A stretch of 64,000 nucleotides of DNA from Elusimicrobiota bacterium (lineage in GTDB: Bacteria; Elusimicrobiota; Elusimicrobia; Elusimicrobiales; UBA9959), in NCBI GenBank assembly GCA_019135865.1, contig JAGVVD010000058.1, forward strand, positions 62,001-126,000, in the 5' to 3' direction. Positions 1 through 22,908 of this stretch are shown here, piece by piece. The notes beneath the pieces were generated by a model. It made no database searches. It saw only the letters and a program-made list of their open reading frames with translations, and was not told the DNA's origin. Each line of letters starts with the position of its first letter. The stretch's first letter is position 1. The position numbers and the translations under genes are program-made.

Positions 1-3000
1 TGAAGCCGTCGAGGCCGTTCCAGTAATTGGCGCCCTCTTTTATCGTTATCTCCACCCTGTTGACGCTGGAGGAGGAGGAGCCGACCAGCGCGTCGGCGGC
101 CGTGCCGGAAACGGCGTTCATCAGGCGCGCCGCCACGCCCGCCCCGCCGGCGCCCCCGTAGAAATCGCCGTTCAGGGGCAGCGTGGAGACCACGACGCCG
201 GGCGACTTGTCCACGGTCACGGAGATGGTGGAAACGGTGACCAGGCCGGTGACGTCCTGCGCCTCCACGGCGATGTAGTAGGGATTGTTCGCCGGGTCCA
301 GGTCGGCGGGGACGGGCAGGTCCGAGGAGACGCTCCAGCTCACGGTGCCGGCCGTGGCGCCGTAATCTGCCGTCCTGTTCCTGTCCGGCGAGTCCAGGAC
401 GAAAGCCGAGTCCCAGTCCCAGAAATACCTGTCGGCGCCGTCCTCGTAATAGATACGCACCTTGAGGCCGGCGGAGGCCGCGCCCTTCAGCCCGGCGAGA
501 TCGGCGTTGGCCGTGCCGGCCACCTGCGAGAGGGAGCTCATGAAGCCGCCCGCCGCCGGCGTGCCCACGAACACCGAAGGCGGGGTGTCGTCCACGATGA
601 AGCGGCGGTAACTGACGCCGCCGTAGGGGAAGCTGTCCTGCGTATTGCCGGCCAGTGTCCCGTCGCCGAGGCGGGCGCGGTCGCGCGCGCGGGCCTGGAT
701 GAAGTATTCCCTGTCGCTGACCCAGACCCCGGCGCCCAGGGTCTTCTTCCAGGGGGAGGTGCCATCGGTCACGTCCAGCCAGGCCTCTGGATTGGCCTCG
801 TGGAATTCCGCGCCGTTGAAATACACGCTGGCGCCGGCCTGCAGGTACCAGAGCTTGTACTGCCCGGTCTGCAGCGACTCTCCCCCGTAATAGTTCTCCT
901 GCGGGTCCAGGGCCGTGCCATTGAGCGCGTCCAGGCCGGCCAGCTGCGTGGAAAGATAACGCTGGTCGTGCGCCGGCTTGACGATGTAGGCCGTGGGCGA
1001 ACTCTTGTCCACGTAGAAGACGAAACTGGACCTGCCGACCTCGAAGACGCTCTGCTGGTTGCCGGCCTGGTCCAGCGCGCGCGACTTCATCAGGTAGCGG
1101 CCGGTGGAAAGTCTGGAATTAAGGACGGAACCGGGATAATTCCAGGAAGCCGAAACGGGCAGCGCCACCCAGGAGGAGGCGAAATAGTCGAAGGTCGAAC
1201 CGCCCCATTGCTTATTGTCCTGGTCGTAGGCGACCAGCTGGAACTCGTTGAGGCTCAGCCCCGCGACATTGTTGCGGGGGGCGGCCCCCGGCGCGGGATC
1301 GGCGGCCGTGCCGGAAAGCACCGCGAGGTCCTTGTAGACGTAGCCGGCGACCGGCCGGGTGGTCACCGCCAGCGGCGGAGTGGTGTCGAACACTATGGCG
1401 AGCGCCGGGATATCCGGGTAGACCGAGAGATTGCCGGCCAGGTCAGCCGGACGCAGCAGGAACTCGTACTGGTAGCCGGTCTGCAGGCCCCAGCCCGCGG
1501 CGGCCGCGGTGGACCAGTCCACAGTGCCGCAGGAAGAGCCGTCGCAGCTGCCGTCCGCGTTGCCGCCCGACGGCACGGCGAGGGAGATATCCGAAGCTGC
1601 GCCGCAGCTCCCCCAGGTCCCGGAGTTGTAACATTCGGCGGTGCCGGCATTGCGTATCCTCAGCCGCAGCGCGTTCACCGAAAGACCGCCCAGCGTATTC
1701 ATGTCCCGCGCGGTGCCCCGGACCTCGGCCAGGGAGTTGTAATTCCCGGCCGCCGGCAGGCTTACGAGACCGTAAGGGGGCTGGGTATCGCTGTAGACGT
1801 TGAAAGCCGCGTTGCCTCGCGTCAGCGGCGAAATGCAGTACTCGTCGCCCTCGCACTGGCCGCCTGGCGACTCGCCGTACGAGCGGATGGAATAGGAGGA
1901 ATTGGCCACGGCCCAGGCCGTGGTGGAGACGGAGAACATCCAGTTGCCCGCGCCGCCGGAGGTGGAGACCGGCACGTTCCAGTACGGGGCGGCCACGTAC
2001 TCGCCGGACGAGACGTACTGCTTCCAGTCCTGGCCGTCGGAATTGCGCGTGATGCGCACCGCCACGGACTGGGAGTACTGGCTGGTGCCCTCGATATTGG
2101 CGAGCGTCTCCGGTTTGAAACGCTGGTTGACGCCCGGCGCGGTTATATAAGTGACGGGCACGTTCTCGGCGAAGCGGAACCTGCGGTCGTAGTCCACCCT
2201 GGCGGGCAGGTCCGTGCCGGCTATGTTGCCGGCCTTGTCCCTGGCCCGGGCCGAGAGCCTGTAAACGCTCTTGGGCGAGAGGAAGCCCGGCGGAAGGGCG
2301 TAGGTCCAGTCGCCGCCGGCCAGCGTCCCGGAGTCTATCCAGATATCGCAGGAACCGGCGGGGCCCACCCAGGCGCTGCCGTCCCAGCATCTGTCGTCGG
2401 CGGTGCCGCCGGAGCAGTCGTCGTTGGGCACGTCGGTCTTCTCGCGGATGATGCGCAGTCTCACCACGCTGAGTTCGCCCAGGCCATAGTCCTCGGCCGT
2501 GCCTGCCAGGCTGGTCATGCTGGTGAACTTGTAGGAATCGGCGCAGCCCTGGACTTCGGCCGGCGCGGTTACGGCCGACGCCGGGGTCGTCACGTCCACC
2601 GTGAAATAGTTGGTGGCGTGCGCGGTCTGCAGGTTGCCGGCCAGGTCCTTCACGCGCGCCACGACGTAATAGGTGGTATCGTTGGTCAGTTTCGCGGGGT
2701 CTATGTAGTATTCCCAGGTGCCGGAGGAGACGCCCATCAGGGAGGTGCCGTCATTATAGGTGCCCGCGAAAGGCATCGCGCCGTAGCCGAACTCCGGTTC
2801 GTCCTGGGTCAGCGTGAAGTCGGCGCCGTCCCACCACTTGCCGTCGGAAAGCCGCCGGAAAGCCACCTGCACGCTCTGGGAGGCGGTCGTGGTGCCCAGG
2901 CCGGCCTCGTAGTTGCGCGGGGCGGCGAAAGGCGAATAGTCGCCCGCCGCGCCGGTAAACATAGAGAGCGTCTGGTAGAAACCGCCGTGCTCCGGCACGC

Positions 3001-6000
3001 CGGCGTAGCGCCCGCCCGCTCCAACGACGGCGGGAGGGGTCTTGTCCACGCCGAAGGCCGAGGTCGTGAAAACGGTCTGGTAATTGCCGGCCAGGTCCCT
3101 GGCGCGCGGGATCATTTCATAACGGTAGCCCTCTGTGAAGAGCGTGCCATAGACGGAGTCTCCCTGCGAAGTCCAGGCCGCGTCCTCGGTTATCCCGGAG
3201 CCCGATACGTCGATGGGCAGGTTGAAGCCCATCGTGCCGCCCCAGCCGCCCACACCGTTGTAGTAATCGTAACCGTCGCCGGCCGAGCCTGTGCGCCTGA
3301 GCATAAGCCTTACACCCGCCGGGTCTATGCCCGAGGCCTTGCTCTCCGGCGAACCCAGCGAGGTGTCCAGCGCCGTGCCGGCCAGCGGCGTACTTACGGC
3401 GAAAGCGAAGGAATCATGGACCGGGAAAGTGGAGACCGAGACCGGCAGGTCGTGGTCCACGGTGAAATACCTGGGCGAAACGCCGGTGGGATTGGACAGG
3501 GACCTGTTGGAATTGCCCGCGTAGTCCACGGCCCGCACGTAGAGCTTGAACTCCTGCGGATTGGCCAGGGCCGCGAAATAGGCGGTGAGCGCCGCGTCCG
3601 TGAACGTCCAGCTGTCCTGGTGCACCTCGCATTCCAGCCAGGAGCCGCCCGCCGAATAACTGTCGAAGGCCGCGCCGCCCCAGAAATTGTTCAGCGCGTT
3701 GGACACGGCGACGTAGACCTTCTCCACCCCCGACGCCTCGATCTTATCGGAAGCCGGGTCCGGGTCCGGGTCCGACTTGGGACCGTAGAACTCCGCCACG
3801 TTCTGATAATTGCCCGAAGCGGCAGGATAGTCCACGGACGCGGTCGGCGAGGAGAGGTCATAGCGGAACGTGGCCGCGCTTCCCGAACCGCTGTTCTGGT
3901 TCCCCGCCTTGTCCCCGGCCAGCAGCCGGACCTCGTACTCCCAGCCGTCCTTGAAAATGGTGCCGGCCGCGAACTGACCGTCGCTGTACTGGAAGAAACT
4001 GCCGGCCAGCGTGGCCGGCAGGACGGCGGCGCTGGAATAGAAGACCGAGCCGTTCCAATTGTCGCCGGCGCCGGTGGTGGAGGCCAGCCGTATCTGGAAG
4101 TTCTGGGAGACGCGCGCTCCGGGAGCGGTGTCCCAGGCGGTACCGCGGAGCTCCGGCAGCTCGCCCGCGCGGTGCGCGGTCTTGGCGGGCAGCGTGACGG
4201 CGGTCACGGGCGCGAGCCCGTCCATCACGAATTCCCTGCCGGGGCCGGGATATTCCTCGCCGTTCACGGTATGCGTGGCCTTCGACACCACCCTGAAGTT
4301 CCCGCTCACGCCGGCGCCCCAGCTATCGGACGGGATGCTCCACTGCCAATTCTCGCCGTCGAAGGTCACCACCCCCACATAACCGGAAAAAGCCGAAGTG
4401 GAGACCCAGGCGGAGCCGTTCCAGACCAGGTCGTCGTTCCCGGTCCCCTCCGTAAGGTCCGCACCGTAGTCCGTGATCCTGAGCTGCACGGTGGTGGCGT
4501 TGAGCGCCGTACCGGAGAGTACCGGCGGCGGGCTGGGATTCAGGTGCGGCAGCGAAGCGTCGGGCCAGTCTATGGTGGAAACGGGGCCCGGAACCAGCAG
4601 CTTGAACCTGATGTAGGGCCCCGGCGCGGGGGAACCCGGCTTGACCACCTCGTTGCCGGCCTTGTCCACGGCCTTGGCGAAAATGCGGTAATAGATGCCC
4701 TCCTGCACCGCGATCCAGGTAGGGGAGGAGGCGCCGGTGGCGGTCCAGGCGTCGCCCGGCCCGAGCGAGGCCTCGTAGAAGAGCTCCTCCGCCGAATCCC
4801 AGGCGCCGGTAGCCCTGTTCCACCAGCCGGCCGGCGCCGCTTCCTTGTAATAGGAGACCAGGACTTTATCCAGAACGCCCGGCGAGGTGTCGGAAGCCGT
4901 GCCGGAGATCACCGGCACGTCCACCGCCAGCTCGGAGAGATGGGCCGGATAGGATACGGTGGAGGCGGGGAGAGTGAAATCCGCCGTTACGCCGGTGGCG
5001 CTGCTGTAGGAAAGGCCCCAGTTCCCGGCCCTGTCCACGACCCTCGCGTCCATGTCGTAGAGGATATCGGTGTCCCAGGGGGAACCGTTGAGCTGCCACC
5101 AGGTGCCGCCGGGGCTCAGCGTGCCGTAGAGGGTTACGTCGTTCCAGACCTGCGGCGCATCCTCCAGGGTCCAGGAGGAATCGCTGACCCGCCAGTAATG
5201 GTCGTCGCTGCGGCGCTTGATGCGCACCTCCACCTTTTCCACCTCTCCGGGCGGGATGTCGGCGGCGGTGCCCGTGACCCGGCCCTGCTGGGTGATATAG
5301 AAACCGGAAACCGGATAGGTCACGGCCGCGGTCGGGGCCCCCACCTCATAGACGAAGGCGGTGGTGGAGAACAGAACCTCGTTGTTCCCGGCCTTGTCGA
5401 AGGAACGGGGGGCCACGAGGAAAGAGCGGCCGGCCTTCCAGAAATTGAGGCCGGCGAGGCCCGACTGCGGCGGGTCCCAGTGCCAGTCCTCGTAATTGGA
5501 GTCGAAAACAGCGTCGTCGGCCGCGGCCAAAGGCCAGTTGGACAGCGGCGGCTCGGAGGAGGACCAGTCGGTCAGCACATTGTCCCAATAGTAGGTGGTA
5601 CTTTCGCCCAGAGCGCCGCTGGGCAGGCGCAGAACCTTTAGCCTGACCCCCGTCAGGACGCCGCGCGTATTATCCACCGAGGTGCCCGTGATGGAAGCGA
5701 ACTTGTAGTTGAAATGCTGGCCGTCCGGCGGGAAGGTCACGCCCGAATCGGGACTCTCGGGGTCCGCCCTGTATTCGTCGTAGACGAAGTAGGCGGTGGA
5801 AAGCGGGACCTGATAATTGCCGGCTCCGTCGACCGCCCTGGAGACCACGCGGTAGCGTATGGAATGCTGCCAGGCGGGGCTGGTGAAGGTCCAGGTGCCG
5901 GAGCTCCGTCCCACATAGACGGCGTCGAACCAGTGGGCGCCGTCCGTGAGGTCTCCGATGTCCCAGTCGGCGGGATCGGGGTCCCCGTTATAGGTCTTGC

Positions 6001-7200
6001 CGCTCGAATCGTCGTAAATATGAACCTTCACCGCCGCCACTTTGCGGGCGGCGTAGGCGCTGACATCGTCGTTGGCGGTGCCGGTTATCGCGGCGAGGGA
6101 GCTCTTGTGGTCGCCGTCGGCTAGGCCGGTGAAATTGGATGCCGGGACCGAATTGTCATAATAGAACGTGTGCACGCTCTCCGCGCCCAGGTTGCCGGTG
6201 CCGGCGGTCTCGGTTATATCAACGGCGTTGTCGCGGGCGCGGGTATGCACCCGGTATTCGGCGTTGTCGGTCAATTGTCCGGCCGGTACCATGGGGGTGT
6301 CCCACACCATCGGATCGCCGCCGAGCATGGAGGCCACGGGCCAGGTGGAAGGCTGCACCGTCTTCCACTCGACCCCGGTCCACCAGCCGGCCGGGATGTC
6401 GCGCTCCACGATGGTCTCCACCTCGTAAAGCCCGGCGGCCAGGCCGCCGGCTCCCGGATAGTCCTTGGCGGTACCGGTTATTTCCGCCAGGGAGGAGGCC
6501 GAGAGGTAAGAATCGTCCCCGGGGAACGTCAGGAGGGAGACCGGCCCCGTGTTATCGAAAGTGACGGTCTTGTCGGCCGTCTGATAGGTGTTTCCGGCAT
6601 TGTCGTAGACGCGCGCCCGCATGGTGTACGTGGTCCCGCTGGTAAGCGAACCGGAGAAGCCCGTGTAGCTCCAGGGATCGACGTCCGCTGCGGCCACCCA
6701 GGTCGAAGGATTGTTGACGAAGGCCGAACCGTCCCAGTAATGATCGTCGGAGCGGCGCCTGAGCTGTATATCCACCCTGGCGGGCCCGGAGATGCCGTCG
6801 GAGGAGGAACCGGCCAGCTCGAGCAGCTCCTTGAGCGTAACGCCGCCGCTCTGCGGCGTGGTCATGGAGCCGGCCGGCGGGTTATTGTCATAGGTGAAGA
6901 CGGCGCCGGCGCCGGGGGTCTCCCGGCCGCCGTTAAAGCCGTAGGCGCGGCTCCTGATCTTGTACTGGCGTCCGGAGAGCAGCTTGGCCACGGGGGTGGT
7001 ATAGGTCCAGGTCTGGAAGACCACGTTGTAATCACTGTCCAGCCACTGCTCGGTCTGCGCCGCGAAGTTGGCCCCGTCGTACCAGGTGGAACCCTGCGTC
7101 AGGTCCTGGATGCTCGTCCAGATATCCGCGGCGTCGGCGGATGCTCCGCCCGCTAACTGCGCTATGCCGGCCGCGTTGTAATAGGGCAGCGCCGGCCGCG
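1..7200 (-). repeat. Array of about 18 Ig-like VDxTPP/ITGTAxD protein repeats
   Basis: The pattern ITGTAxD or a close variant recurs about every 390 bases, for example near 6460, 6070, 5680, 5260, 4890, 4510, 3370, 2490, 1690, 1300, 500 and 95. Each module also has a Y-x-D/V-D-x-x-P-P opening. Many contain an aromatic W/Y-D/N-G motif such as HYWDG, KWWDG or NYWNG, which looks like a conserved surface loop. The array continues beyond the left edge. Confidence 0.8.
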
Positions 7201-10200
7201 TAATGGACGAAACAGGATAGGCCCCTATCGTCAGCGTGCTGGCCAGCGTGGAATAGCCGCCGCCGGTATTGGTCACTTTTATGTCCCAGGGGCCCGCGGC
7301 CGCCCCCGCGGCCACGCTGACGGTGGCTTCGGCGTGCTGCGCATCGATGACGTTCACCCCGCCCACGGTCACCAGACCGTAGAGCACGTCCACGTCCAGG
7401 CCGGCCTGGAAATAGTTGCCGGTTATATAGAGGGTCTCGTTCTCGGCGCCCCTGCCCAGTTCGCCGGGATGGATACCGGTTATCAGCGGTTTCGGACCCA
7501 CGGAAAAGCCGTTGAGCTCCCGGTGTTTGCCGCCGTCAGGGTTGGTTATGAAAACGTCCCCGGCGCCGGTGGCGGCGCTTATGTCCACGTTCAACTGCAC
7601 GTCCACGCGGCCGGAATTCTGGTAAACGGTCTGCAGCACCGTGATGCCCGGATTGGCGAAGGTCACCGCGGGACTCCCGCCGATATTGCTGAAGCCCGAG
7701 CCCAGCACCTGCACCCAGATCCCGCTCACGCCCTGGTCGCCGACGGCCGGGACCAGCGAGGTGATGTCCGGCTTTGGATTGACCGTGAAGGAGGCGTAAT
7801 TGCGGCCGGCGTCGGGATTTATCACCGAGATAACGCGGGCCCCCAGCGTGGCGGTCTCCGAAATGGTGCCCACATGCACCGTGAAGGACGAGGGATGGTA
7901 GGTATAACTGGAGATCTCCACGTCCGCGCCCAGGTCCGCCGTGCAGCCGCTCTGGTAGCCGGACACGAGATCTATCTTTATATCCTGGTAGTTCGCGCCC
8001 TGGCCCCTGTTGCCCGGGGAGACCGCCGAGATGACGGGCGCGGGGTTCACCGTGAAGGTGCTATAGACTATATCGTAGCCCTCGTCGGTGTTCTGCAGCC
8101 TGATGAACTTGTCGCCGGCGGCCGCGTCGGTGGAGATGGAGATGGTGACCTGCGCGGTGGCGGAGTTCTGCAACGAGGCCGCGGCGGGATAGGGCTGCAC
8201 CTTGCCGGTGGCGCCGCCCTCGAAATAGGCGCCCATGCCGGCGACGAAGCCGCTGCCGTAAAGGGTTATGACCTGGTTGAGCGCGCCGGCGCCCCTGACG
8301 GCCGGAGCGGCGTAACGGAACCGGGGGCGCTGTTTCACGGTGAAGGCCCCGGGCAGCGTGTCGGAGCCGCCGTCCGGGTTGAACACCGTGACGTCGCGCG
8401 GTGTATCCACGGGAGAGGCCTCGGGATCTATCGAAATATTGACCACCAGGGTGTCCGGCGGCGACGGCGTAACGTTGTTTATCGTAATGCCGGTGCCCGG
8501 CGAAAAGACGACGTCGTTGAGGCCTATGCCGGCCTGCAGGTAACCGCCGCTGATGGAGAGGTTGTAATTGGAGGCCCATTGCCCCAGGCTGCCCGGGGTA
8601 AGCGACACTATCGACGGCGCCGCGTTTATGTAGAGCAGCGGCGAATCGCTTATGCTCCTGCCGTAGTCGGGGTTGGTCAGTTTTATATAGCGCCCGCCGG
8701 TCTTCGCCCCGGGCGCCACCGTCAACTCCATGGAGATGAGGCCCGCGGAATCCCGGTTGAAGGAATTTATGGTGATGTCCGGGTCCGGCGTGTCGCAGGA
8801 GGTGTAGGTGGAGATCACTATGCCGGCCTGCGTCAGGCCCGCCTGGAAATAGTTCCCCTGCAGGCGGACGTTCTGCGCGGCCGCGCCGGCGCCCAGTTTA
8901 TTGTCGGTCCAGCCGGAGACCTCGGTGGTCAGCTGGCCGAACGCCGGCCTGGTACTGACGGTGAAAGGGCTCCAGTTGCTGGTGAAAGAACCGCCGTCGG
9001 GATTGGTTATGCGAAGGTCCTTGGTACCGGTCTGGGCCGCGCCGTCCACGTTGACCGTGACGGTGAAGGAGGCCGGCACATGCGTATAGTCGTAGCCGGT
9101 GACGTTCACGATGGTGTCCAGGAACTCCACCAGCGCGCCGTTCTGCAGGTTGGCGCCGTTTATCACCACCTCCCGTCCCTGCGCGGCCTGGCCCAGTTGC
9201 ACGGGTTGCAGCGTGGTGAAGGAAGGCCCGTAGGTCACGGCGACCTGGTCCGCCAGCGTATCCGAGCCCCAGTCCAGGTTGGTGACCCTTACATCGTAGA
9301 TGGTGTCGGGGTCGGCGGTGGGAGCGATGTCCACCTGGCATTGCAGGGTATTGGCGCTGAGCACGCTGGTCCAGTCCACCGAAATGCCGCCCTCCGGAAA
9401 GGAGACCTGCGCTCCCGAGACGAAGTTGGAGCCGCTGATCGTGAGCACCCTGTCGGTGGCGCCCTGACCGAAACTGAGCACGGCGGGGTCGGTGACGGCG
9501 GTGACCGAGGGCGACGGCGTTATCTGGAAGAAAGAATCGCCGGGGACCTTGGAGTCGTAGCCGCCGTCCGGGTTGATGACGGTAAAATTCTGCCAGCCCA
9601 GCGGGCACGAGGTGCCGATGGAGACGTTGACGGACATGGAGGAGGCGTAATACCCGTAACCGAACTTGGTTATGCCGTTGGGACCGCTGGGCAGGCCGAA
9701 ATCCACGACGGCGCCGCTCTGGATGTAGGAGCCCTTTACCCATATCAGCCTGTTGGCCGCCCCGCGGGCCAGCCTGTTGCGGGGCGTGGCGTCGGTGCCC
9801 TCCGCCTTGGCCTCGTCCATTACCGGTTTCGGATTTATCGTGAAGTCGCCGCTCTTGGTGGTCCTGCCGCCGTCCGGGTTGGTGACGGTGATATCGCCGG
9901 CTCCGTAGTCGGGAGCGCCGGAGACCCCTATCTCCACCCTTATCTGATTGCCGCCGTCGAAAGTGACCTGCTTGACCGTCACCCCGGCCGCCGAGAAGGC
10001 CACCGAGCAGCCGTTCATGAAGCGGCTGGTGGCGTCGGTTATGGTTATGGTGCTGCTGGCTATATCGGCGCCCCGGACCTTGGGACTCAGTGTCAGATTA
10101 TCGCCGCCGAGAGCTTCGCCCGGGCGGTAATTGACGGTGAACCAGCCCGGGCGCGTGGAGGCCGCCCCGTCGGGATTGGTCACGGTGACGTCGCGCGCGC

Positions 10201-13383: not shown

Positions 13384-15047
13384 ACCTTCAGCTCCTGGTA
13401 GAGCTTGATGAATGCCGGGTCGCCCGGGAACAGTTTGAGCGCCTTTTCAGTCTCGGCCAGAGCCTCCTTCCCGCGGCCCGACCGTTTGTATACGAGTATG
13501 AGATTATAGACGCCCCTGGAATAGCCGGGCTCCGCCGCTATGGCCTTCTTGAGGGCTTCGACGGCGGCCTCCGGACGCCCGCCTTCCATGTAGGCGACCG
13601 CGAGGTTATTATAGACCTGGAGGTTCTCCGGCAGCAGGACGCTGGCCTTCTCAAGGTAAGCCGCGGCCTCCGCGTACTTGCCGGCCCGGATACAGACCAC
13701 CCCGAGATTATAAAGGGCCGCGGGGTCCCCGGGCCTGGCTTCGAGAACTCCTTTCAGTATCCTCTCCGCCTCTGGCAGGTCGTTCTCGCGCAGCGCGACC
13801 AGGGCCAGGTTCTGTGAAAGCAGGCGGAAACCTTCGGGATCGGTGCTCCTGCCGATGCCCCGCAGATAGTACTTCCGCGCCTTCGCGTAATCCCCGCGTT
13901 CGTAGTGGATCCCCCCGAGATTATGCTTTATCCTGGGCGAGTCCGGGTTGATCTTTTCGGCCTGTTCCCAGAGCAGTACCGGGTCCCGCCACTCCGCGGC
14001 CCGCAGGAAGGTCCTGGCTCCGCCGGCGGCCACCACCCCGGAGAGCAGGGAGTAGCGCAGGGCCTTCGCCTTCACCGCGCCGAAGACCAGCAGCGTCAGC
14101 AGGGTCGTGAAAGCCAGGCTGGGCAGGAACATACGCTGCTCGCCCAGCGGGCGGCCGGCGATGAAGACGATATTGGAATAGGGCAGTATGGAGATAAAGA
14201 GCAGGAACAGCAGGAACCGCGCCGGCCTGCCCAGGCGGGTCAGGAACATAGACCCGGCCGGCGCCAGGAAAGCGAGCAGCGCGGCCGGCGAGAAGGCTGC
14301 GGAGGCCGGCCAGTCCACCAGCAGGCGCGCGGGATAGAACAGCTTCTCCAGGTAAAAGCCGTAGGTGTTGAGGAAGAGGGAGGCGTGCGCGGTGAGGCCG
14401 CCGACGCTGCCCGGACCCACTATCGCCTCTGAGTGCATAAGGCTGTAGACGCCCCTGACGGCCGCTATCAGGTAAAAAGGTACGGTGGAGCGGTAATCCT
14501 TGTTCTTTTCAAAGAAGTAGATGTAGAACGTCAGCACCACAGGGAAGATAACGCTGGTCTCTTTGGAAAGAGCGCAAAGCGAGAACAGGACCACGGAGAG
14601 GAGAAGGCTCTTTTTACGCGCCAGAAAAGCCAGGATGAAGAAGGCGAAGAACAGCAGTTCCGTTCTGTTCTTTATCCAGACCACGGCCTCCGTGTGCACC
14701 GGGTGCAGCGTGAACAGCAGGGAGGCGAAGAAGGCCTGCGCCCGGTCCTTGAGCAGTTCCTCGAGGAACAGGAAGGCCAGCGCGCCGCACAGGGCGGCGA
14801 GCAGGATATTGGTGAAGTGATAGCCGGCGGCGTTGCCCTTCCACAGGAAGGAATCGAGATAGAAGGAAAGGGCGCGCAGCGGCCTGGACTCGGTATGCTC
14901 GATGCCCCGGTACTGCTGTATCTCCGGGATGGAGACATAGTCGTCCCAGAAGAAAGGGGCCTTCAGCGCGGGGGTATATGCCAGGAAACCCGCGAGAAAG
15001 ACGGCCGCAAGCAGCCAGCCCCTGTCTATCTTCAGCGCTCCTTCCAT
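13380..15047 (-). CDS. TMTC-like polytopic membrane protein with TPR array (paralogue)
   Basis: 555 residues with the same layout as its downstream neighbour: membrane segments over residues 1-345 with an early APFFWDDYVSI loop, then TPR units to the C terminus (for example AALYNLGVVCIRAG and LQVYNNLAVAYMEG). Both proteins share V-H-P-x-x-x-E-A-V-V-W-x-K-N-R in the loop after the second membrane block, so they are tandem duplicates. The GT-C assignment rests on topology and the acidic loop. It could instead be a non-catalytic assembly protein. Confidence 0.8.
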   Translation of the reverse strand: MEGALKIDRGWLLAAVFLAGFLAYTPALKAPFFWDDYVSIPEIQQYRGIEHTESRPLRALSFYLDSFLWKGNAAGYHFTNILLAALCGALAFLFLEELLKDRAQAFFASLLFTLHPVHTEAVVWIKNRTELLFFAFFILAFLARKKSLLLSVVLFSLCALSKETSVIFPVVLTFYIYFFEKNKDYRSTVPFYLIAAVRGVYSLMHSEAIVGPGSVGGLTAHASLFLNTYGFYLEKLFYPARLLVDWPASAAFSPAALLAFLAPAGSMFLTRLGRPARFLLFLLFISILPYSNIVFIAGRPLGEQRMFLPSLAFTTLLTLLVFGAVKAKALRYSLLSGVVAAGGARTFLRAAEWRDPVLLWEQAEKINPDSPRIKHNLGGIHYERGDYAKARKYYLRGIGRSTDPEGFRLLSQNLALVALRENDLPEAERILKGVLEARPGDPAALYNLGVVCIRAGKYAEAAAYLEKASVLLPENLQVYNNLAVAYMEGGRPEAAVEALKKAIAAEPGYSRGVYNLILVYKRSGRGKEALAETEKALKLFPGDPAFIKLYQELKV

Positions 15048-15048
15048 C

Positions 15049-15708
15049 CTATTTCCCTCTCTTCATCCTTTTCAGCGCCGCGGCGGCGGCTTTCCTGTTC
15101 TTCTCGCGCGGGTCCCGCGCGGCGCCCTCCAGGGCGCGCTCCGCGGCGGCCCGCCTGGGGCCCAGGTCGCGTATCTCGGCCATGCCGGCCAGCGCCTCCG
15201 CCGCGACCCTGCGCACCTCCGGGTCGGAGTCGGAGGACGTCTTCTCTATCAGTTTGTCGGCCGACTCTTCCGGCCCGTACTTGCCTAGCGAGCGGCTGGC
15301 GGCGCTCCTTACCGCGGGGGACCTGTCGTCGGCCAGCTTCGCCAGCGCGCCGAGCGCCTTCTCTCCGGGGAAATTCCCCAGCGACTGAGCGATCATCGCC
15401 CTCACGGCGGTATGAGTGCTTTTCTCCGCCGCCAGTATCAGCGGCTCGACGGCCCGCTCGTCGCGTATCTGCCCCAGCGAGACGGCGGCGGCCACGGCCA
15501 CGCCCTGCGACCGGTCCTTCAGCAGGGGGACCAGGCCGGCCACCGTCGCCGTGGACCTGAGTTCCCCGGCCTCCCGCGCCGCGGCCATGCGCGCCGCGGG
15601 GTCGGCGCTTCTCAGCCGCGACAGCAGGCCGGCCTCCTGGGCCGCGGCCGGCGCCGCCAGCGCCAGGCATAGGGTCAATATCGAAAGCGTTCCGCGTTCT
15701 TTAAGCAT
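15049..15708 (-). CDS. Secreted HEAT-repeat protein
   Basis: 219 residues. A signal peptide (residues 1-23, ending AAPAAAQ) is followed by about five HEAT-like helical repeats of about 30 residues with the pattern D-P-x-x-R-x-x-A-x-x-A-L-G. No catalytic motif is visible. The fold usually serves as a binding scaffold, so a periplasmic docking role for the glycosylation or surface-protein machinery is inferred. Its start overlaps the end of the preceding gene by 8 bases, and its stop lies just before the next start. Confidence 0.8.
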   Translation of the reverse strand: MLKERGTLSILTLCLALAAPAAAQEAGLLSRLRSADPAARMAAAREAGELRSTATVAGLVPLLKDRSQGVAVAAAVSLGQIRDERAVEPLILAAEKSTHTAVRAMIAQSLGNFPGEKALGALAKLADDRSPAVRSAASRSLGKYGPEESADKLIEKTSSDSDPEVRRVAAEALAGMAEIRDLGPRRAAAERALEGAARDPREKNRKAAAAALKRMKRGK

Positions 15709-17164
15709 AGTTCTCTCCGTTACCGGGTATCTTCGCCGCCACCAGCAGATTGTAGAAGACCGGGCCGAAACTGCGCGCCTCCAGCACCCTGAGACCGTGC
15801 GCCTCCAGGCGCCCGCTCAGTTCGGCCACCGTGTAAGTGCGCAGGTGATCGTCGGGCTTTATGCCGAGCAGGGAGGCGGCCTTGTCGAGAAAACCGTTCA
15901 CCGCCGTTATGACCAGGCGGCCGTCGTCCTTGAGCACCCGGCCGGCCTCGGCGAGCGTCTTCTCGGCGTCGTCCACGTGCTCTATCACGGAACATATCAG
16001 GACCGCGTCGAACTCGCCCGCTCCGAAAGGCAGTTCCTCCCCCTTGCCCTGCAGTATCTCTATGCTGTCGGATTTCCTGCGCTCGATGAGTTCCTTGAAG
16101 AGCTCCACTCCCACGGCTCTCCTCACGCTCAGGCCGGAGCGCACCGCGTCCAGCATCACGCCGTCGGCCGCGCCTATGTCCAGGACGCTCAGCTCTCTTC
16201 CGGGGCAATGCCGGCCCAGCGCGTCCACCACTTCCCTGATGCGCCGCTTCAGACGGTAGCCGGTCAGCGGGTTATTGTTCCTGCGGTCGAAATAGCGCTC
16301 CGGGTCGAAGGCCTCCGGTTCGCGGGCGGGCAGGGACATCCTGGAGACGAATTTCTTCAGGAGCAGGGTGGAAAGCAGCAGGGGAAGGACGCTTTCCATG
16401 AAGGAGATGGCCAGCGCGCAGGACAGCAGTACGGGATAGGCGGCCGCGCCCGCGAAGGCCGCCGCCACCGAGGCCTCCCGCACCCCTATGCCCATCACGC
16501 TCAGGGGCAGGCCCGTGAGGATAAGTATCGGCGGCACGTAGAGGAAGAATTCCCCCGCCGGGATGTCGATACCGAAAGCCATGAAAGCGAAGATGAAATT
16601 CGCCATAAGGAACAGCTCGCTTAGCAGGGAATAGAGGACCAGCGGCCGGTATTTTTTCCCGAGGAGCAGGGCAACGGCCAGGGCCAGGCCGCAGAGCCCC
16701 GCCAGAGCGGCCGCACCGAGACCGAAATGCAGGGCGGCCGCGCCCGCCAGCGAGAGGGCCAGCAGCACCGGCAGCCGGGTGGCGTAGCCGAAGACTATCA
16801 GGAACACCCCTTTACCGTAAGGCACGTCGTGCACGCGGTTGAGATAGACGGCGCGGGCGAACTCCCCCGCCTTGGCGGGCACCACTGCTTTGAGCGACAT
16901 GCTGCCGACGCGGATGAGCCTGGCCTCGGCTTCGGAGACGGTCACCCCCATGAAGCCGAGCAGGTGCCGGTATTTCCTCACGGTCACCACGAAGGAATAG
17001 AGGAGGGCCGCGGCCAGGGAGAGCAGGAGGAGCAGGGGATCCGCCGCCACAAGCGCCCGCGGCAGTTCGCTCAGATCGAGACGGGCGAGCAGCGCCGCCA
17101 GGACGGCGGCGGAGACCGCCCAGGGGAACGCTTTCCTGGCCAAGCGGATCATTTCAGCAGCCAT
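15701..17164 (-). CDS. LPG-synthase-type membrane domain fused to a SAM methyltransferase
   Basis: 487 residues. Residues 1-290 form about eight membrane helices with the signature of the lysylphosphatidylglycerol-synthase transmembrane family, which includes lipid flippases (SLKAVVPAKAGEFARA and the GIGVREAS segment). Residues about 320-487 are a class I methyltransferase with VLDIGAADG (motif I) and a later LICSVIEHVDD. I chose the ATG at 17164 because an AAGAGG lies just upstream; an ATG at 17152 that overlaps the previous stop is the alternative. The fusion suggests methylation of a lipid-linked substrate at the membrane, by inference. Confidence 0.8.
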   Translation of the reverse strand: MAAEMIRLARKAFPWAVSAAVLAALLARLDLSELPRALVAADPLLLLLSLAAALLYSFVVTVRKYRHLLGFMGVTVSEAEARLIRVGSMSLKAVVPAKAGEFARAVYLNRVHDVPYGKGVFLIVFGYATRLPVLLALSLAGAAALHFGLGAAALAGLCGLALAVALLLGKKYRPLVLYSLLSELFLMANFIFAFMAFGIDIPAGEFFLYVPPILILTGLPLSVMGIGVREASVAAAFAGAAAYPVLLSCALAISFMESVLPLLLSTLLLKKFVSRMSLPAREPEAFDPERYFDRRNNNPLTGYRLKRRIREVVDALGRHCPGRELSVLDIGAADGVMLDAVRSGLSVRRAVGVELFKELIERRKSDSIEILQGKGEELPFGAGEFDAVLICSVIEHVDDAEKTLAEAGRVLKDDGRLVITAVNGFLDKAASLLGIKPDDHLRTYTVAELSGRLEAHGLRVLEARSFGPVFYNLLVAAKIPGNGENYA

Positions 17165-18144
17165 AAGACCTCTTTGAGAGTCCCGAACCTGAAATTGTAA
17201 AGGAAGTTCAGTTCCAGCGAGCCGCAGAAGCCGCAACCCCCGCACTTCACCGGGGGGGCGGACTCCAGCGCGGCCCCGACGCCCGTCTCGAAACAGTTCG
17301 GCGGCTCCGTCGCGTAATCTATCCGGTCGCAGGGATAGAAGGTCCCGTCGGTGTCGATGACGCAGAACAGCCTGCCCGCGGAGCAGGGCAGCGCCGGATA
17401 ACCCGGCCAGTCCATTATATGCCGCAGCCCTATCAGCGAGTTGCGCATATATCCCGCCCAGCCGTCGGCCTTGAGCTCCGCCAGCCTGGCTATCTGCCGC
17501 CGGTATTCTTCTCGCGGCGGGTAGAGGTCCCGCATCTCTTCCGCGCCCACTCCGCGGTATAGCGGCTTGAGCGGCTGGAAGGCCGCCCTGATGCCGTACT
17601 TTTTGGCCAGCCCCAGTATGAAATCCAGGTGCCCGATATTATGCCTGGTTATCGTGGTAGCCAGGCTCACCCTTATCCCCGCGGCCTGCGCCGTTTCTAT
17701 GGCCTTTACACAGTCCCTGAAAGCGCCCTTGCGGGCGGACAGGGCGTCGTGAACCTCTTCGGGGCCGTCCACGCTTACTTTCAGCAGGTCGAGCCCCTTC
17801 AGGCCGGCTATGCGCCGCTCGATGAGAGTCCCGCGCGAATTCATCTCGGGAGAAATACCGAGCTCTTTACAGCGGCCTATTATCTCCCCTATATCGTCCC
17901 TCAGCAGCGGCTCGCCGCCGCTGAAGGATACCTTGCGGGTGCCCAGCTCCCCGAGCTGCTCCATGACGGAGAATATTTTCTCCCTGGAGGGGTCAGGGGC
18001 CTCGTCGCTCCAGACGCTGCAATAGGCGCAGCGGTTGGGACACCTGTTGGTTATCTGCATGCGCACCGCGACGGGGATGCGCCGGCCGAGGAACTTCACG
18101 GCGGCGAGGTCGCGCAGAGCGCCCAGCTTTGCCAGCGGCTTCAT
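17149..18144 (-). CDS. Radical SAM protein
   Basis: 331 residues. The radical SAM CxxxCxxC motif appears as NRCPNRCAYCSVW near residue 37, followed by FSGGEPLLRDD. A shortened Cys cluster near the C terminus (CGGCGFCGS), after CDRIDY, resembles the auxiliary cluster region of SPASM/Twitch enzymes. The substrate is not predictable. It overlaps the upstream gene by 4 bases (ATGA), which fits translational coupling. Its partners are two other radical SAM proteins fused to glycosyltransferases, so peptide or lipid-glycan modification is the likely setting. Confidence 0.85.
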   Translation of the reverse strand: MKPLAKLGALRDLAAVKFLGRRIPVAVRMQITNRCPNRCAYCSVWSDEAPDPSREKIFSVMEQLGELGTRKVSFSGGEPLLRDDIGEIIGRCKELGISPEMNSRGTLIERRIAGLKGLDLLKVSVDGPEEVHDALSARKGAFRDCVKAIETAQAAGIRVSLATTITRHNIGHLDFILGLAKKYGIRAAFQPLKPLYRGVGAEEMRDLYPPREEYRRQIARLAELKADGWAGYMRNSLIGLRHIMDWPGYPALPCSAGRLFCVIDTDGTFYPCDRIDYATEPPNCFETGVGAALESAPPVKCGGCGFCGSLELNFLYNFRFGTLKEVLWLLK

Positions 18145-20309
18145 ACGCCCCCCCAGCGCAGGACCCAGACGCGCCTGAGGCTCCTGGAGACGGTCGCGAA
18201 GCTGAACTTGGAGGCGCCGCGGCGCCTCTCCAGGTAGGTTATCGGAACTTCCTTTATCCTCAGCCCGCCTTTGAAGCCGCGGTAAAGCATCTCTATGAGC
18301 GCCTCGGTCCCCTCTATCGATCGCAGGTATTCAACGCCTATCTTCTCCAGCGCGTCACGCCTGAAACAGCGGTAGCCGGAGGTGCAGTCATGCACGGCCT
18401 TGAGGCCGAGGCTGTACCTGACATAAAGATTGGCCAGGTTGCCTATCAGGTTCCTGAAAAGGGAACGCCCGACCAAAGCCCCGGAGTTTATGTACCGGGA
18501 GCCTATCACAAGGTCGAATTCGTCCGAATTGCGTATGAGCTCGCCTATGGCGGCCGGATCGTGGGAAAGGTCGGCGTCCATCTCCACCACCACTTCCGCG
18601 CCGCGCTCCAGGGCCAGCCGGAATCCCTCTTTGACGGCGCTTCCGCGCTCATTGGCGGGACCGGTCTTGCCGATATAATGCGCCTCGACGTTGGGAAGTT
18701 CCCCCGCCAGGCGCGCCAGTTCCTCGCGAGTACCGTCCCGGGAGCTGTCCATCACCAGTATGTTCACGCCGGGATACATCCCCGATATCTCCCGCACCAG
18801 GCTTACAACGTTCTCTTTCTCATTGTAGGCCGGGATGATAACGCAGGCTTTCCTGACGCGGTCCGCGGGAGGCGGCGGGACCGCCGCTTCGGGCACGTCG
18901 GTATGGAGATAGTTGAAGAGCATCTTTATGGCCGTGGCGGCGTAGCGGCCGAGCTCTTCGAAAGACCTCGTCTTACGCAGCGTGCTCCAGATAAAACCGG
19001 GCCTGAAGTAAAAGTTGAGGTACGCTTTCTTCAGCAGTTTTTCCACCTTCTCCTGCGGCATGTCCGTCCAGGAGACGGGTATGCGCTCCTCTCCCTTCTT
19101 CAACGCGACGAATTCGCTCCAGTAGTCCCGGCCGGTCTTCGCCGCCACGTCGCGGTGGAATTCGGTGCCGGGCTTGGGTATCGCGCGGCAGATCTGCACA
19201 TAGTCCAGGCCCAGCGTCTTGGCGAAATCGACGGTGGCCTCTATCGACTCCTCCGTGTCCCCCGGATTACCGACCATCAGAAAACCGAGGTTCCTTATGC
19301 CGCGGCCTCTGGCCATCTCTATGGCCCGGGACACCTGCGCCGGGGTGATATCCTTGTTGACCTCGTCCAGCACGTTCTGCGAGGAAGACTCTATACCCCA
19401 GAAGATCATCCTGCAGCCGGCTTTCGCGGCCGCCGCGAGCACCTCCCCGTCGGCGAGGTCCACGCGCGAGCGCGCGGTCCAGACAAGGTCCAGGCCCAGC
19501 CGGGCGAGCCCGGAGCAGAACTCCAGCGACCATTTTTTATCCACGAAGAAGGTCGCGTCGAAGAAATCTATCTCCCTCACGCCGTGCTCGTGGTAACAGC
19601 GTTCTATCTCGGCTATGACGCCGGCCGCGCCGCGCTGGCGCCAGTGTTTGAGACCGGCGATGGCGCAGAAACGACAGCGGTAGGGGCAGCCGGTGGAGGT
19701 CAGCATGACGGTGAAGTTCCTGCGCTGGGAGACGAAGGAATGATAGACGCCGTTTGGCAGCAGGTGCCGCGCGGGCTCCGGGTAATCGTCGAAAGGCACG
19801 AGCCTTTCCGGGGGCGGGTTGCGGCGCAGTTCGCCGTCTTCGCGCCAGAGCAGGCCGGGCACTTCGCGGTAGCGCTCCGGCCGGCCGAAGCGCTCCAGGA
19901 ACATGGGCAGCGTCTCCACGGCCTCGCCTTCCAGGGCGAAATCGATGGCGGCGTGCGACATGGTCTCGCCTGGATAAAGCGAAAGGTTGATGCCGCCGGC
20001 CAGCACCGGCAGCCCGGTGGCCGCCTTCAGGCTCTTTATCCATCCCAGCGTTTCCTGGAAGCCGTAGGTGTCCAGGCGGAAACCCAGCAGGTCCGGGGCG
20101 AAAGAGCGTACCCGATCCAGCGTCGCCTCCTTGGACAGGCGCAGGGCGTGGGCGTCCACCAAAATAACGCGGTGGCCCGCCCTCTCCATGATGGCGGCGA
20201 CATAGGCCAGTACGATAGGCGGGGCCAGCGTGAATTCCTCGTCCACCACCTTGAGGTTCTCGGAGAACTTCCGGTGATGGAAAGGGGCGTGTATCAGGGC
20301 GATCTTCAT
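18141..20309 (-). CDS. B12-binding-type radical SAM protein fused to a DPM1-like family 2 glycosyltransferase
   Basis: 722 residues from the ATG at 20309, which overlaps the previous stop (ATGA). Longer frames reaching 20432 lie inside the upstream gene and are discarded. Residues 1-140 look like a cobalamin-binding Rossmann domain with the usual D-x-H-x-x-G not intact. Residues 200-450 are the radical SAM core with GCPYRCRFC (Cys 208, 212, 215) and FWGIESSS. Residues about 488-722 are a GT2 domain of the dolichol-phosphate-mannose-synthase type with IIPAYNEKEN and MDADLSHDP. The fusion joins radical chemistry to polyprenyl-phosphate glycosylation in one chain. Substrates are unknown. Confidence 0.85.
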   Translation of the reverse strand: MKIALIHAPFHHRKFSENLKVVDEEFTLAPPIVLAYVAAIMERAGHRVILVDAHALRLSKEATLDRVRSFAPDLLGFRLDTYGFQETLGWIKSLKAATGLPVLAGGINLSLYPGETMSHAAIDFALEGEAVETLPMFLERFGRPERYREVPGLLWREDGELRRNPPPERLVPFDDYPEPARHLLPNGVYHSFVSQRRNFTVMLTSTGCPYRCRFCAIAGLKHWRQRGAAGVIAEIERCYHEHGVREIDFFDATFFVDKKWSLEFCSGLARLGLDLVWTARSRVDLADGEVLAAAAKAGCRMIFWGIESSSQNVLDEVNKDITPAQVSRAIEMARGRGIRNLGFLMVGNPGDTEESIEATVDFAKTLGLDYVQICRAIPKPGTEFHRDVAAKTGRDYWSEFVALKKGEERIPVSWTDMPQEKVEKLLKKAYLNFYFRPGFIWSTLRKTRSFEELGRYAATAIKMLFNYLHTDVPEAAVPPPPADRVRKACVIIPAYNEKENVVSLVREISGMYPGVNILVMDSSRDGTREELARLAGELPNVEAHYIGKTGPANERGSAVKEGFRLALERGAEVVVEMDADLSHDPAAIGELIRNSDEFDLVIGSRYINSGALVGRSLFRNLIGNLANLYVRYSLGLKAVHDCTSGYRCFRRDALEKIGVEYLRSIEGTEALIEMLYRGFKGGLRIKEVPITYLERRRGASKFSFATVSRSLRRVWVLRWGGV

Positions 20310-22453
20310 GCCGCCCCCCCGGCTTCGGCCGCCGAGGCTTCCCGGCGCGGGAAGCGAGCGGCGCCGCAGGCTTCGAGCAGCAGCCCCGCCGCCCGGAGAG
20401 GGTCGAAAAAAGAGTTCATCTGCAGATTGCACTCGTGCGTGCAGGAACAGCCGCGGGCGATATTTTCCCTTACGGCCGCGGCCCGGGGAGAGGACCAGAG
20501 GCGGCCGAAATCCAGGCCCGTACCGCGCAGGTTCCCCATGCTTTCGCCGTAGAGCTCGCAGGGATATACGTCCAGAGAACTGTCCACCACCGCGGTCAGT
20601 TCCCCGGCGCGGCAGACCAACGGGTAAGGCCCGCCGCCGGCTATCCCGCTTATCATCGAAGCGATGTTCCTCTTATAGGCCCGGTAAAAAGCCTTGTGGA
20701 AGGCGCCCCCGCGGCCGCCGCGTCCCTCCAGCCAGGCCAGTATGCCGGAGTAGACCCCGCGATAGACACGGACATCGGCGCGGGCGGCGGCCGGGTCCCT
20801 GGTTTCGCCCCTGGCGAAATTCAACCCTATCATGTCGGGTTCCAGTTCCTTCATCACATAGGCGGCGGTTCCGCCCAGAGAATCCCCGTTAAGCCCGGAG
20901 GCGGTCAGCAGTACGCCGGCTTTCAGCCCTTTCCGCGAGCGGGACAGCCCCTTGAGCAGGCGGAAAGTCCGGACCGCCCTGTCGAAACTGCCGCTCACGC
21001 CCCTTATCGCGTCATGCCCGGCGCCGACGCCGTCCAGCGAGACCTTGACCAGCAGGGAGGCGCGGCCGCGGCAGGCGTCCAGGATGGCGGCCGCCAGCTC
21101 CGCCGTCCTCTCCGGGAAAAAACCGCTGGTGGGGACGGAAATGCGGGTCACGCCGTTGAGCTCCGTGAGAAGCCGCGCGATCTCCGGCAGGTCGTCCCGC
21201 AGGAAGGGTTCTCCGCCGGTAAGACTGGCGAAGCTGAACCTGCCCATGGTCGGCAGGACCTTCTCAAGTTCGGCGAGGGTGAAATCGCTGCGGCCGGCGT
21301 CCGCGTTCTTCCAGTTAAAGCAATGGGAGCACTTCAGCGGACATCGGGCGGTGACGAAGAAAGTCGTCTGCTCGGGCATGCCGGGAACGCCGCGGAAGAA
21401 CATCTTGCGCAGCCAGCGCGCTTTTTCCGCGGCCGAGGCCGCGAACCGCGCACCTTTGCGCGCCGCCCGGAGAACCGGCCCGCAGACAGCCCCGGCCAGC
21501 GCGGCGGCCATCTCGCAGAAGTAAACGCCGAGGCAGGCCGCGGCTGTCAGGGCGCCGGCCCGCCTTTCCATGAAGCGGTAAAAGCGGGAATTGACCAGGC
21601 ACATCGCCGCCAGGGCGGCGGGCGTCAGCCAGGCGAAAGCGGGCGTGCCGGCGAGGACGGCGGCGGCCGGCGCGGCGAGGACCAGTCCTGCGAGGGGCAG
21701 GGTGAGAATTTCCGCTTTCATCGCCCCGGGGCCGTTGAGGGAGAAGGTCATGCCTGGCGCGCCGCGGCGGCCTTCGAGCATAAGGCCCGCCTTGGCCAGC
21801 ACTTTGAGAAAGTCGCATTTCAGCAGCCCGGCGAAAGTATAACGCTTGAGGTGGACGACGCGGACGCTTTTGTTGAGCCTTATCGTACGGCCGGCTGCGC
21901 GGAGGCGGCGCCCGAGGTCGACGTCCTCCGCCCGCTCGGCCGAAGGATCGAAACCGCCGACCGAGGCGAACGCCTCTTTCCTCACGGCGAAACAGAAACC
22001 GTTGACGCCCGAGATGAGGGCGCCGTCGGCGAGCTTGGAGGCGTTATAGCACTTGTAGAAGTTCCTCGCCAGGGAGGGGACGTCCGCGGACGGGCAGTTC
22101 TCCGAATACACGCCCTGCACGGCGTCCGTACCGGGGAAACGGCGGAACGGGTCCAGCAGTCCCGCGAGCCAGCCCTCCTCCGGCAGCACGTCCGCGTCGA
22201 GGAAAACCAGTATGTCCCCGGCGGCGGCCCGGGCTCCGTGGTTCCTGGCGGCGGCGGCGCCGGACCGGCGGGACAGACGGACGGTCCGCACCCCCCTCGC
22301 CTCCGCTTCGGCCGCCGTAGCGTCCAAGGACATGTCGTCCACGACCACGATATCCGCGGCCGCGGCTCCCGCGGCAAGGCAGGCGTCGAGGCACTTCCCT
22401 ATATCGCGGCCGGAATTATACGCCGGTATTATGACGCTGACGGTTTCTTTCAT
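20306..22453 (-). CDS. Family 2 glycosyltransferase - membrane segment - radical SAM fusion protein
   Basis: 715 residues from the ATG at 22453. Residues 1-220 are a GT2 domain (SVIIPAYNSG, DxD at 86-88 in VFLDADVLP, and an AEDVDLGRR motif). Residues about 245-330 hold hydrophobic helices. Residues 360-715 are a radical SAM core with RCPLKCSHC (Cys 371, 375, 378), LTGGEPFLRDD and a C-terminal Cys-rich CSCTHEC stretch. The frame stays open up to 22654, but that extension starts in the leader just after a terminator and is composed unlike the protein, so I reject it. As first gene of the operon it sits directly behind the riboswitch leader. Confidence 0.85.
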   Translation of the reverse strand: MKETVSVIIPAYNSGRDIGKCLDACLAAGAAAADIVVVDDMSLDATAAEAEARGVRTVRLSRRSGAAAARNHGARAAAGDILVFLDADVLPEEGWLAGLLDPFRRFPGTDAVQGVYSENCPSADVPSLARNFYKCYNASKLADGALISGVNGFCFAVRKEAFASVGGFDPSAERAEDVDLGRRLRAAGRTIRLNKSVRVVHLKRYTFAGLLKCDFLKVLAKAGLMLEGRRGAPGMTFSLNGPGAMKAEILTLPLAGLVLAAPAAAVLAGTPAFAWLTPAALAAMCLVNSRFYRFMERRAGALTAAACLGVYFCEMAAALAGAVCGPVLRAARKGARFAASAAEKARWLRKMFFRGVPGMPEQTTFFVTARCPLKCSHCFNWKNADAGRSDFTLAELEKVLPTMGRFSFASLTGGEPFLRDDLPEIARLLTELNGVTRISVPTSGFFPERTAELAAAILDACRGRASLLVKVSLDGVGAGHDAIRGVSGSFDRAVRTFRLLKGLSRSRKGLKAGVLLTASGLNGDSLGGTAAYVMKELEPDMIGLNFARGETRDPAAARADVRVYRGVYSGILAWLEGRGGRGGAFHKAFYRAYKRNIASMISGIAGGGPYPLVCRAGELTAVVDSSLDVYPCELYGESMGNLRGTGLDFGRLWSSPRAAAVRENIARGCSCTHECNLQMNSFFDPLRAAGLLLEACGAARFPRREASAAEAGGAA

Positions 22454-22493
22454 CGGTCCCGCCGCGACGGGGCATGAAGCCGCGCGCGGACAA

Positions 22494-22541: not shown

Positions 22542-22669
22542 TTACTAATGATAGTATTATAATATTTCGCAATTGTTTCAACACGCCGCGCGGGCGTTTT
22601 CCCCGTGCCCGCGCGCGCGAGGATATCGTTTCTTTTGAATCCGTCCGTTTTCATAAGTCACCGGCCAAT

Positions 22670-22714
22670 AAAAAAACCGTCCGACTGTCATGGGACCCGG
22701 AGACAGACGAACGG
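22670..22714 (-). terminator. Intrinsic terminator acting as riboswitch expression platform
   Basis: On the minus strand a 13-base stem (22702-22714 with 22677-22689, one T-T mismatch and one G-T pair) encloses a 12-base loop. It is followed directly by seven Ts (22670-22676). It lies about 50 bases after the aptamer and over 200 bases before the start codon, the arrangement of a transcription-attenuating riboswitch. Whether ligand turns the operon on or off cannot be decided from the sequence. Confidence 0.8.
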
Positions 22715-22760
22715 CCTCTAGAATCACGCCAGAAAGCGGCATAGCCGCCCTCGCGCTGTT

Positions 22761-22846
22761 CTGTCTTCGGCAGCCAGGCAGTCCGCTGTCGGACCCTCGG
22801 CTTTGCGCCCCCGCCTTAAGGCGGGTTTGCTATTATCGCGACACCG
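22761..22846 (-). promoter_or_regulatory. GEMM-I-like cyclic dinucleotide riboswitch aptamer (A20 variant)
   Basis: The minus strand contains the two near-invariant GEMM-I blocks, AGCAAACC and GCGCAAAGCC, flanking a perfect short stem (CCGCC/GGCGG, UUAA loop). A second stem (GUCCG/CGGAC) and the closing segment GGCUGCCGAA follow. A short TGTC/GACA pairing closes the element. Aligned by eye to the Vc2 c-di-GMP aptamer, the base equivalent to G20 is A, the change known to shift this class toward 3',3'-cGAMP. The UUAA loop departs from the usual GNRA. Class recognition is firm; ligand identity is inferred. Confidence 0.8.
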
Positions 22847-22880
22847 CAAAAAACGTGGCCCCCTGGGGACCAAGCATTAT

Positions 22881-22908
22881 ATTATACAGGATTTTTCGCT
22901 TTTGTCAA
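22881..22908 (-). promoter_or_regulatory. Sigma70-type promoter of the riboswitch-controlled operon
   Basis: The minus strand reads TTGACA (22903-22908), a 16-base spacer, then TATAAT (22881-22886). Both hexamers match the consensus exactly. Transcription should start near 22874, giving a leader of about 420 bases before the first start codon. Confidence 0.85.

Follow-up and report, generated by a model that had tools for sequence, protein, structure and literature searches.

A cyclic-dinucleotide riboswitch seems to stand ahead of glycosyltransferase, radical SAM and giant surface-protein genes in an Elusimicrobiota bacterium, which raises the question of what it controls, in which direction and in answer to which ligand. 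We analysed a stretch of 64,000 nt (the window; C54:62001-126000, to which all coordinates without a prefix refer) from a genome of 2.95 Mb in 59 contigs, listed as 100% complete. At the start of the locus, on the (-) strand, a promoter, a GEMM-I aptamer and a terminator are followed by eight closely spaced ORFs, which overlap by 4-16 nt or leave gaps of 1-26 nt; all of these are read directly from the DNA. The promoter, TTGACA-16-TATAAT at 22881..22908 (-), matches at 12/12 positions and is the only strong (-) promoter-like site between 11000 and 23200. In the same interval, promoter-like sites of any quality numbered 6, compared with 1.5 expected from shuffles.

The preliminary description of this DNA had read the promoter and the eight tightly packed genes as one operon of 22.5 kb. 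The promoter and the packing were borne out, and no strong separate promoter precedes the giant gene, since the internal (-) sites reach at most 9/12. The extent had to be corrected. The operon is ~60 kb long because its last gene, the giant gene, passes the window edge and runs to C54:24850. A transcript of ~60 kb would be very long, which counts against the single-operon reading.

Upstream, the first riboswitch has an S41 peptidase gene (22950-24062) as its neighbour, both here and in most of the family genomes whose contigs reach far enough to show it. Further along the window, ~25600-61300 resembles, on inspection of the sequence, a locus for a Tad/Flp-type pilus and for two-component signalling, inside which a GGDEF protein is encoded at 53194-54732.

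The riboswitch leader and its predicted direction

The aptamer (22765..22840 (-)) belongs to GEMM-I, the c-di-GMP-I class, and carries an A at position 20. The covariance model RF01051 gave 61.6 bits (gathering score 35), which agrees with its earlier assignment, and RF03167 gave 61.5 bits (E 4.5e-12; gathering 59 bits), so that the aptamer scored above both thresholds. Rfam's listed model for it is the c-di-GMP-I-GGC variant (RF03167). We rejected this assignment, since the aptamer has A and A at positions 20 and 47, where the model consensus has the G and G to which the GGC of its name presumably refers. All aptamers listed in the comparison of position 20 (see below) have CGCAAAGC in common.

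The intrinsic terminator noted earlier was seen in the folds as a hairpin at 22716-22677 followed by seven U (22670..22716 (-) in all). The leader fold was better than 200/200 shuffles (z = -3.5). The aptamer 3' strand CCGAAGACAGA (22760..22770 (-)) is complementary at 10/11 pairs to TCTGTCTCCGG (22697..22707 (-)), inside the terminator 5' arm, and the two would be the proximal and distal halves of an antiterminator. When the own leader was cut before the terminator 3' arm, the MFE fold held the antiterminator with 10/10 pairs, and at full length the fold changed to the terminator. The terminator and a mutually exclusive antiterminator make up an expression platform linked to the GEMM-I aptamer.

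The same complementarity was found in the relatives. In 11/17 family first-riboswitch leaders, TCTTCGG, the exact complement of the aptamer strand CCGAAGA, occurs downstream, where dinucleotide shuffles predict 0.19, and this complement sits in the terminator 5' arm. Since the relatives share ancestry, these are not 11 independent events. The exact complement is missing in 6/17 leaders, among them the window's own, which has a longer match with one mismatch.

Since the pairing consumes a ligand-contacting C and the P1 strand, the ligand should cause termination. The leader resembles an OFF switch acting on transcription, which contradicts the usual 'ON for adhesin' logic that the preliminary description had carried over from GEMM-controlled adhesins. 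The antiterminator was not the MFE of the shortened transcript in 5/11 leaders tested, so OFF switching is a prediction; these five leaders fit the antiterminator model only if binding or pausing matters. In the cell, too, the ligand would turn the operon OFF.

Before the aptamer, at 22856-22872, a perfect hairpin leads into a run of U. Its counterpart in the relative G231 (L084 ~6050-6190), a long CCCCGCCCTTTTGG...CCAAAAGGGCGGGG stem and then TTTTTT, is likewise terminator-like and upstream of the riboswitch.

The giant protein and the cassette ahead of it

The window holds the N-terminal 3,835 residues of the last protein (2..11506 (-)), which continues outside to C54:24850. The whole gene (C54:24850-73506) is a single open frame of 16,218 codons from the first ATG, or of 16,177 codons if counted from the start that a simple caller based on codon usage prefers, with a high coding score. 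The earlier view of a giant surface protein of more than 3,835 residues was right in kind, and the full length, ~16,200 aa, is four times what the window showed. An assembly artefact was considered and rejected, since no stop interrupts the frame and a homologue of comparable size occupies the same place in the gene order of a second genome, G231 (about 13,100 residues, one frame over the three pieces of sequence analysed). An abundance of proteins longer than 5,000 residues is an established feature of Elusimicrobiota (PMC11573180).

The protein starts with a signal peptide, followed by about a dozen IPT/TIG-like repeats and a long array of Ig-like repeats of ~130 residues each with Big_3/Big_13 matches; a second repeat type has ~125 residues. 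At the C-terminus there is a FlgD_ig domain (27.9, cut-off 27), and the T9SS type A sorting domain TIGR04183 scored 17.1 bits, below its cut-off of 23. A PDB sequence search with the C-terminus gave no match. The model of one 130-residue repeat was beta-rich (pTM 0.67); it had no PDB match at E <= 0.001, its weak best matches being adhesin repeat domains (E about 2e-3), and it was used solely as support for an Ig-like beta fold. We infer that the protein is secreted to the outer surface by PorV/T9SS-like export.

Between the switch and the giant gene lies a cassette of seven (-) genes. It begins with a GT2 glycosyltransferase-radical SAM fusion (20306..22452; PF00535 2e-27, PF04055 1.7e-12), whose first ORF start is 22654 and whose likelier start is 22452. 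The GT2 part is MftF-like, with a score below the cut-off of the MftF model. Family matches identify the following protein as a B12-binding radical SAM protein fused to a DPM1-like polyprenyl-phosphate GT2 (18141..20309). Then come a radical SAM protein (17149..18144; PF04055 6.6e-24), a fusion of an LPG_synthase_TM flippase-like membrane domain and a methyltransferase, again by family match (15701..17164), and a HEAT-repeat protein with a signal-peptide-like N-terminus (15049..15708; PF13646 1.3e-32). The last two are TMTC-like GT-C membrane proteins with TPRs, at 13380..15047 (WDD, RPLR, KET and ER motifs; PMT_2 3e-4) and at 11533..13383 (conserved motifs).

In both TMTC-like proteins the WDD, RPLR, KE and ER positions are invariant, and these match the motifs described for the human TMTC proteins (PMC7801869). 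The DD after TM1, the KE(T) and ER motifs and the C-terminal TPRs are all present; the DUF1736 (TMTC) Pfam domain was absent among the family matches of the cassette proteins. The AlphaFold2 model of the second protein was too poor in its GT-C part for comparison (pTM 0.48). As judged by these gene families, the cassette would synthesize a polyprenyl-phosphate sugar, flip it and transfer it to the Ig-like domains of the giant protein. The glycan decoration that the preliminary description had proposed gains from the GT2, flippase-like and TMTC-like genes, their motifs and their location; the modification itself is putative.

The riboswitch and the giant gene are kept together in about a dozen family genomes, some of them without the cassette, and the first GEMM is then followed by the giant gene directly or past a few small genes. 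This strengthens the riboswitch-giant link proposed earlier. The cassette is rarer, since the GT2-radical SAM fusion was found in 4/59 family genomes, and a scan of named genomes found it in one relative, Elusimicrobiales bacterium STC_50, the closest named one that was found. In this genome (G231), which belongs to another genus, the whole order S41-GEMM-seven genes-giant-GEMM-PorV is kept, with 59-80% identity over the seven genes, so that the eight-gene order holds in a second genus. The GEMM is followed by the first three cassette genes in G083 (39% GC) and by the cassette to the second TMTC-like gene in G201, in both cases up to the contig end. G143 has a different cassette and an extra GEMM. 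Going by this pattern of conservation, the riboswitch and the giant gene form the core and the cassette is an optional, exchangeable insertion outside that core, which departs from the preliminary description.

Further riboswitches and a flagellum-free set of motor-like genes

A second GEMM riboswitch (C54:24577-24655) lies ~195 nt past the giant stop, before a PorV-family gene. It and the motor-like genes behind it are outside the window and were therefore beyond the view of the preliminary description. Downstream of it, C54:15783-24571 (L005, L006) encodes PorV-TPR, FliG-like-TPR, a coiled coil, FlbD, MotA and MotB. The PorV-family protein scored above the cut-off of NF033709 (108.9 vs 90 bits). 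The FliG-like protein has a FliG_C domain (E 3.4e-27), and its score of 108 falls well short of the 226.7 that the FliG equivalog model requires. The order second GEMM-PorV-FliG/FlbD/MotA/MotB recurs in synteny across the family.

These genes do not come with a flagellum. FlhA was found neither in the own genome nor in 57/59 family genomes by a search that detected it in four flagellated controls, so most of the family lacks a flagellum, and an FlhA export gate beside FliG and MotAB is not present here. A PorV/PorQ-family protein linked to a putative substrate, as expected of a T9SS, was found. The T9SS translocon protein SprA gave no match in the genome; since no control genome gave a match in the same search either, we do not claim that the T9SS is absent.

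A third GEMM riboswitch (C19:153-288, L007) precedes a Kelch-repeat protein, which has a similar weak T9SS-like C-terminal domain, and another PorV-family gene. The neighbourhoods of the second and third riboswitches thus suggest a regulon in which surface proteins go together with PorV-type partners, joined by a stator/rotor-like set that has no flagellum. Since a riboswitch of the same type stands ahead of the PorV and motor-like genes, the giant protein, PorV and the motor-like proteins would make up one regulon.

The promoters of the first two riboswitches also share a palindrome, TTGACCTGTCAA (consensus TTGACNNGTCAA), a putative operator at 22921..22932 (-), 24 nt upstream of the -35 box. 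TTGACNNGTCAA was found 22-25 nt upstream of the -35 box in 12/17 first-riboswitch and 9/11 second-riboswitch leaders. In 126 kb of C54 it occurs only twice, at the first and second (C54:24738) riboswitch promoters; both copies lie at a fixed distance upstream and are kept in relatives. A common transcription factor likely acts at TTGACNNGTCAA.

Several other features were observed around these genes. In the second-riboswitch leaders (L005 ~2440-2575 and those of ten relatives), the PorV start codon stands a few bases past the aptamer, a CCCC...GGGG-TTTTT stem, possibly a terminator, overlaps the signal-peptide codons, and the stretch from promoter to aptamer contains conserved GTAAC/GTAAT repeats. 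Repeated CTTCGGTAACAT-TTAAGTGATT units occur in the sequence ahead of the third GEMM. A second FliG_C-containing protein, of 516 residues, is encoded elsewhere in the genome (C52:61-366, L096).

Ligand, alternative readings and known systems

The aptamer position equivalent to Vc2 G20 and Gs1371 A14 sets the dinucleotide selectivity (PMC6274999, PMC9262584), and an A there is the cGAMP-type residue (PMC6274999). We found A in all three aptamers of the own genome and in 26 of the 29 family aptamers counted, whereas the 16 counted in other families of the phylum invariably have G. These counts speak for a 3',3'-cGAMP (GEMM-Ib) switch, with which the locus would answer to a different second messenger, but the enzymes that could make cGAMP point away from it and leave this reading unlikely. 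Hypr GGDEF enzymes, which make cGAMP, carry Ser at one particular position (PMC6456294). The readable GGDEF domains of seven family genomes all have Asp there (some divergent domains were unreadable), as do all five GGDEF domains of the own genome. No SMODS-type CD-NTase was matched in the own genome or in 4/6 relatives searched, so that neither kind of cGAMP synthase was found in the own genome. In addition, A20 aptamers are reported to bind c-di-GMP too, via a protonated adenine (cited in PMC9262584), and three family aptamers have G20, one of which precedes the same cassette in G201. We tentatively favour c-di-GMP as the ligand. The family-wide change from G20 to A20 with no matching cGAMP synthase would be a natural test of how riboswitch ligand choice drifts. 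SMODS/CD-NTase-like proteins are encoded in two relatives with A20 riboswitches (G045:C19:114779-115255, L127; G028:C16:232494-232946, L128), where they could be a source of cGAMP.

The direction of the switch and the role of the cassette also have alternative readings. The giant gene might be a biofilm adhesin switched ON at high signal, like many GEMM-controlled adhesins: giant Ig-repeat surface proteins are often adhesins, as are the weak best matches of our repeat model, and ON switches that answer to cyclic dinucleotides are known, pilM among them (PMC9262584). We hold this to be quite improbable, because the conserved complementarity predicts that ligand binding frees the terminator and because the motor-like genes behind the second riboswitch suggest a regulon of the motile state. 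The cassette, for its part, might have nothing to do with the giant protein and serve to make a glycolipid or small molecule, its place behind the riboswitch being accidental. Most relatives indeed keep the giant gene without it, and its B12-radical SAM and GT2 matches resemble hopanoid, lipid and mycofactocin enzymes. However, the full or near-full-length GT2-radical SAM fusion was found only behind this riboswitch, in each of its four genomes, the different cassette that G143 places there again has two TMTC-like and B12-radical SAM proteins, and two of the about three TMTC-like proteins of the own genome sit here. An unrelated cassette therefore seems somewhat unlikely.

We read the locus, with a probability of about 0.6, as a cyclic-dinucleotide-controlled surface-machine locus that combines an OFF-switched giant protein, PorV export, glycosylation by the cassette and a motor-like regulon. 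Transcription would start at a sigma-70-type promoter with a conserved palindrome and produce a leader with an A20-type GEMM-I aptamer. Without ligand, the aptamer 3' strand would pair with the terminator 5' arm as antiterminator and ~60 kb would be transcribed; with ligand, the aptamer would keep its 3' strand, the terminator would form and the operon would be off. The core product would be the secreted giant Ig-like-repeat protein, brought to the outer surface via a PorV-type route. The cassette, placed in this genome between switch and giant gene, most likely makes a polyprenyl-linked sugar (DPM-like GT2, flippase-like protein) that the two TMTC-like GT-C proteins most likely transfer to the Ig-like domains of the giant protein, and the radical SAM enzymes may modify the sugar, lipid or peptide. 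The second riboswitch of the same type would place PorV and the FliG/FlbD/MotA/MotB-like genes in one regulon with the giant protein. The likeliest role would be adhesion or gliding in a low-signal, motile state.

The association of riboswitch, giant protein and motor-like genes hints at an undescribed surface-attachment or gliding machine. A bolder proposal, which we regard as doubtful, is that a flagellum-free FliG/FlbD/MotA/MotB motor, coupled by way of a PorV-type outer-membrane protein, exports or moves an Ig-repeat surface protein of 13,000-16,000 residues, under two A20 riboswitches and a shared operator, with exchangeable glycosyltransferase/radical SAM cassettes decorating it. If the motor link holds, stator and FliG-like rotor parts of flagellar type are at work in a machine that is no flagellum. 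The locus also connects a bacterial gene that is among the larger ones with a defined regulatory signal and conserved partners, and gives a concrete entry point to the role of the giant proteins of Elusimicrobiota.

GEMM-I riboswitches, giant proteins of Elusimicrobiota (PMC11573180), TMTC-like proteins and PorV are all of known kinds. In a limited literature search we found no description of the way in which they are combined and conserved here, nor of the OFF logic, the drift to A20 or the flagellum-free motor-like neighbours; judged by title and abstract, none of the papers found on riboswitches in Elusimicrobiota deals with such a locus. The survey of giant proteins in Elusimicrobiota and Omnitrophota reports, in the part cited, no linkage to a riboswitch, cassette or motor (PMC11573180).

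The closest parallel for the leader is the c-di-GMP-I riboswitch Cd1 of C. difficile, an OFF switch of the flagellar operon. There too, a GEMM-I aptamer precedes an intrinsic terminator, the antiterminator takes the ligand-binding strand of the aptamer, and the ligand is predicted to halt transcription (PMC9262584, PMC6366702). Here, in contrast, position 20 is A and not G, and the operon under control encodes a giant surface protein, in a genome that lacks FlhA. The Geobacter GEMM-Ib riboswitches (pilM, Gs1371) share the A at the selectivity position and the G-A-x-A-A-x-A pattern (PMC6274999), but pilM is an ON switch, and here no Hypr GGDEF was found, and no CD-NTase in the own genome.

The SprB/T9SS gliding system of Flavobacterium resembles the locus in three respects, which are united here in one regulon: a giant surface protein that is repetitive and ends in a T9SS-like domain, a protein of the PorV family, and a motor of the inner membrane driven by ions. 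The putative motor here differs in being MotA/MotB with a FliG-like protein. The human O-mannosyltransferases TMTC1-4, which act on the Ig-like domains of cadherins, share with the cassette proteins the GT-C domain, the DD/RP/KE/ER motifs and the C-terminal TPRs (PMC7801869), and the putative substrate here is likewise a chain of Ig-like domains. Unlike them, the cassette proteins have no DUF1736 Pfam match, and donor and substrate are putative. Should the giant protein prove to be the target of the cassette, bacteria would have a parallel to the TMTC glycosylation of Ig-like adhesion domains.
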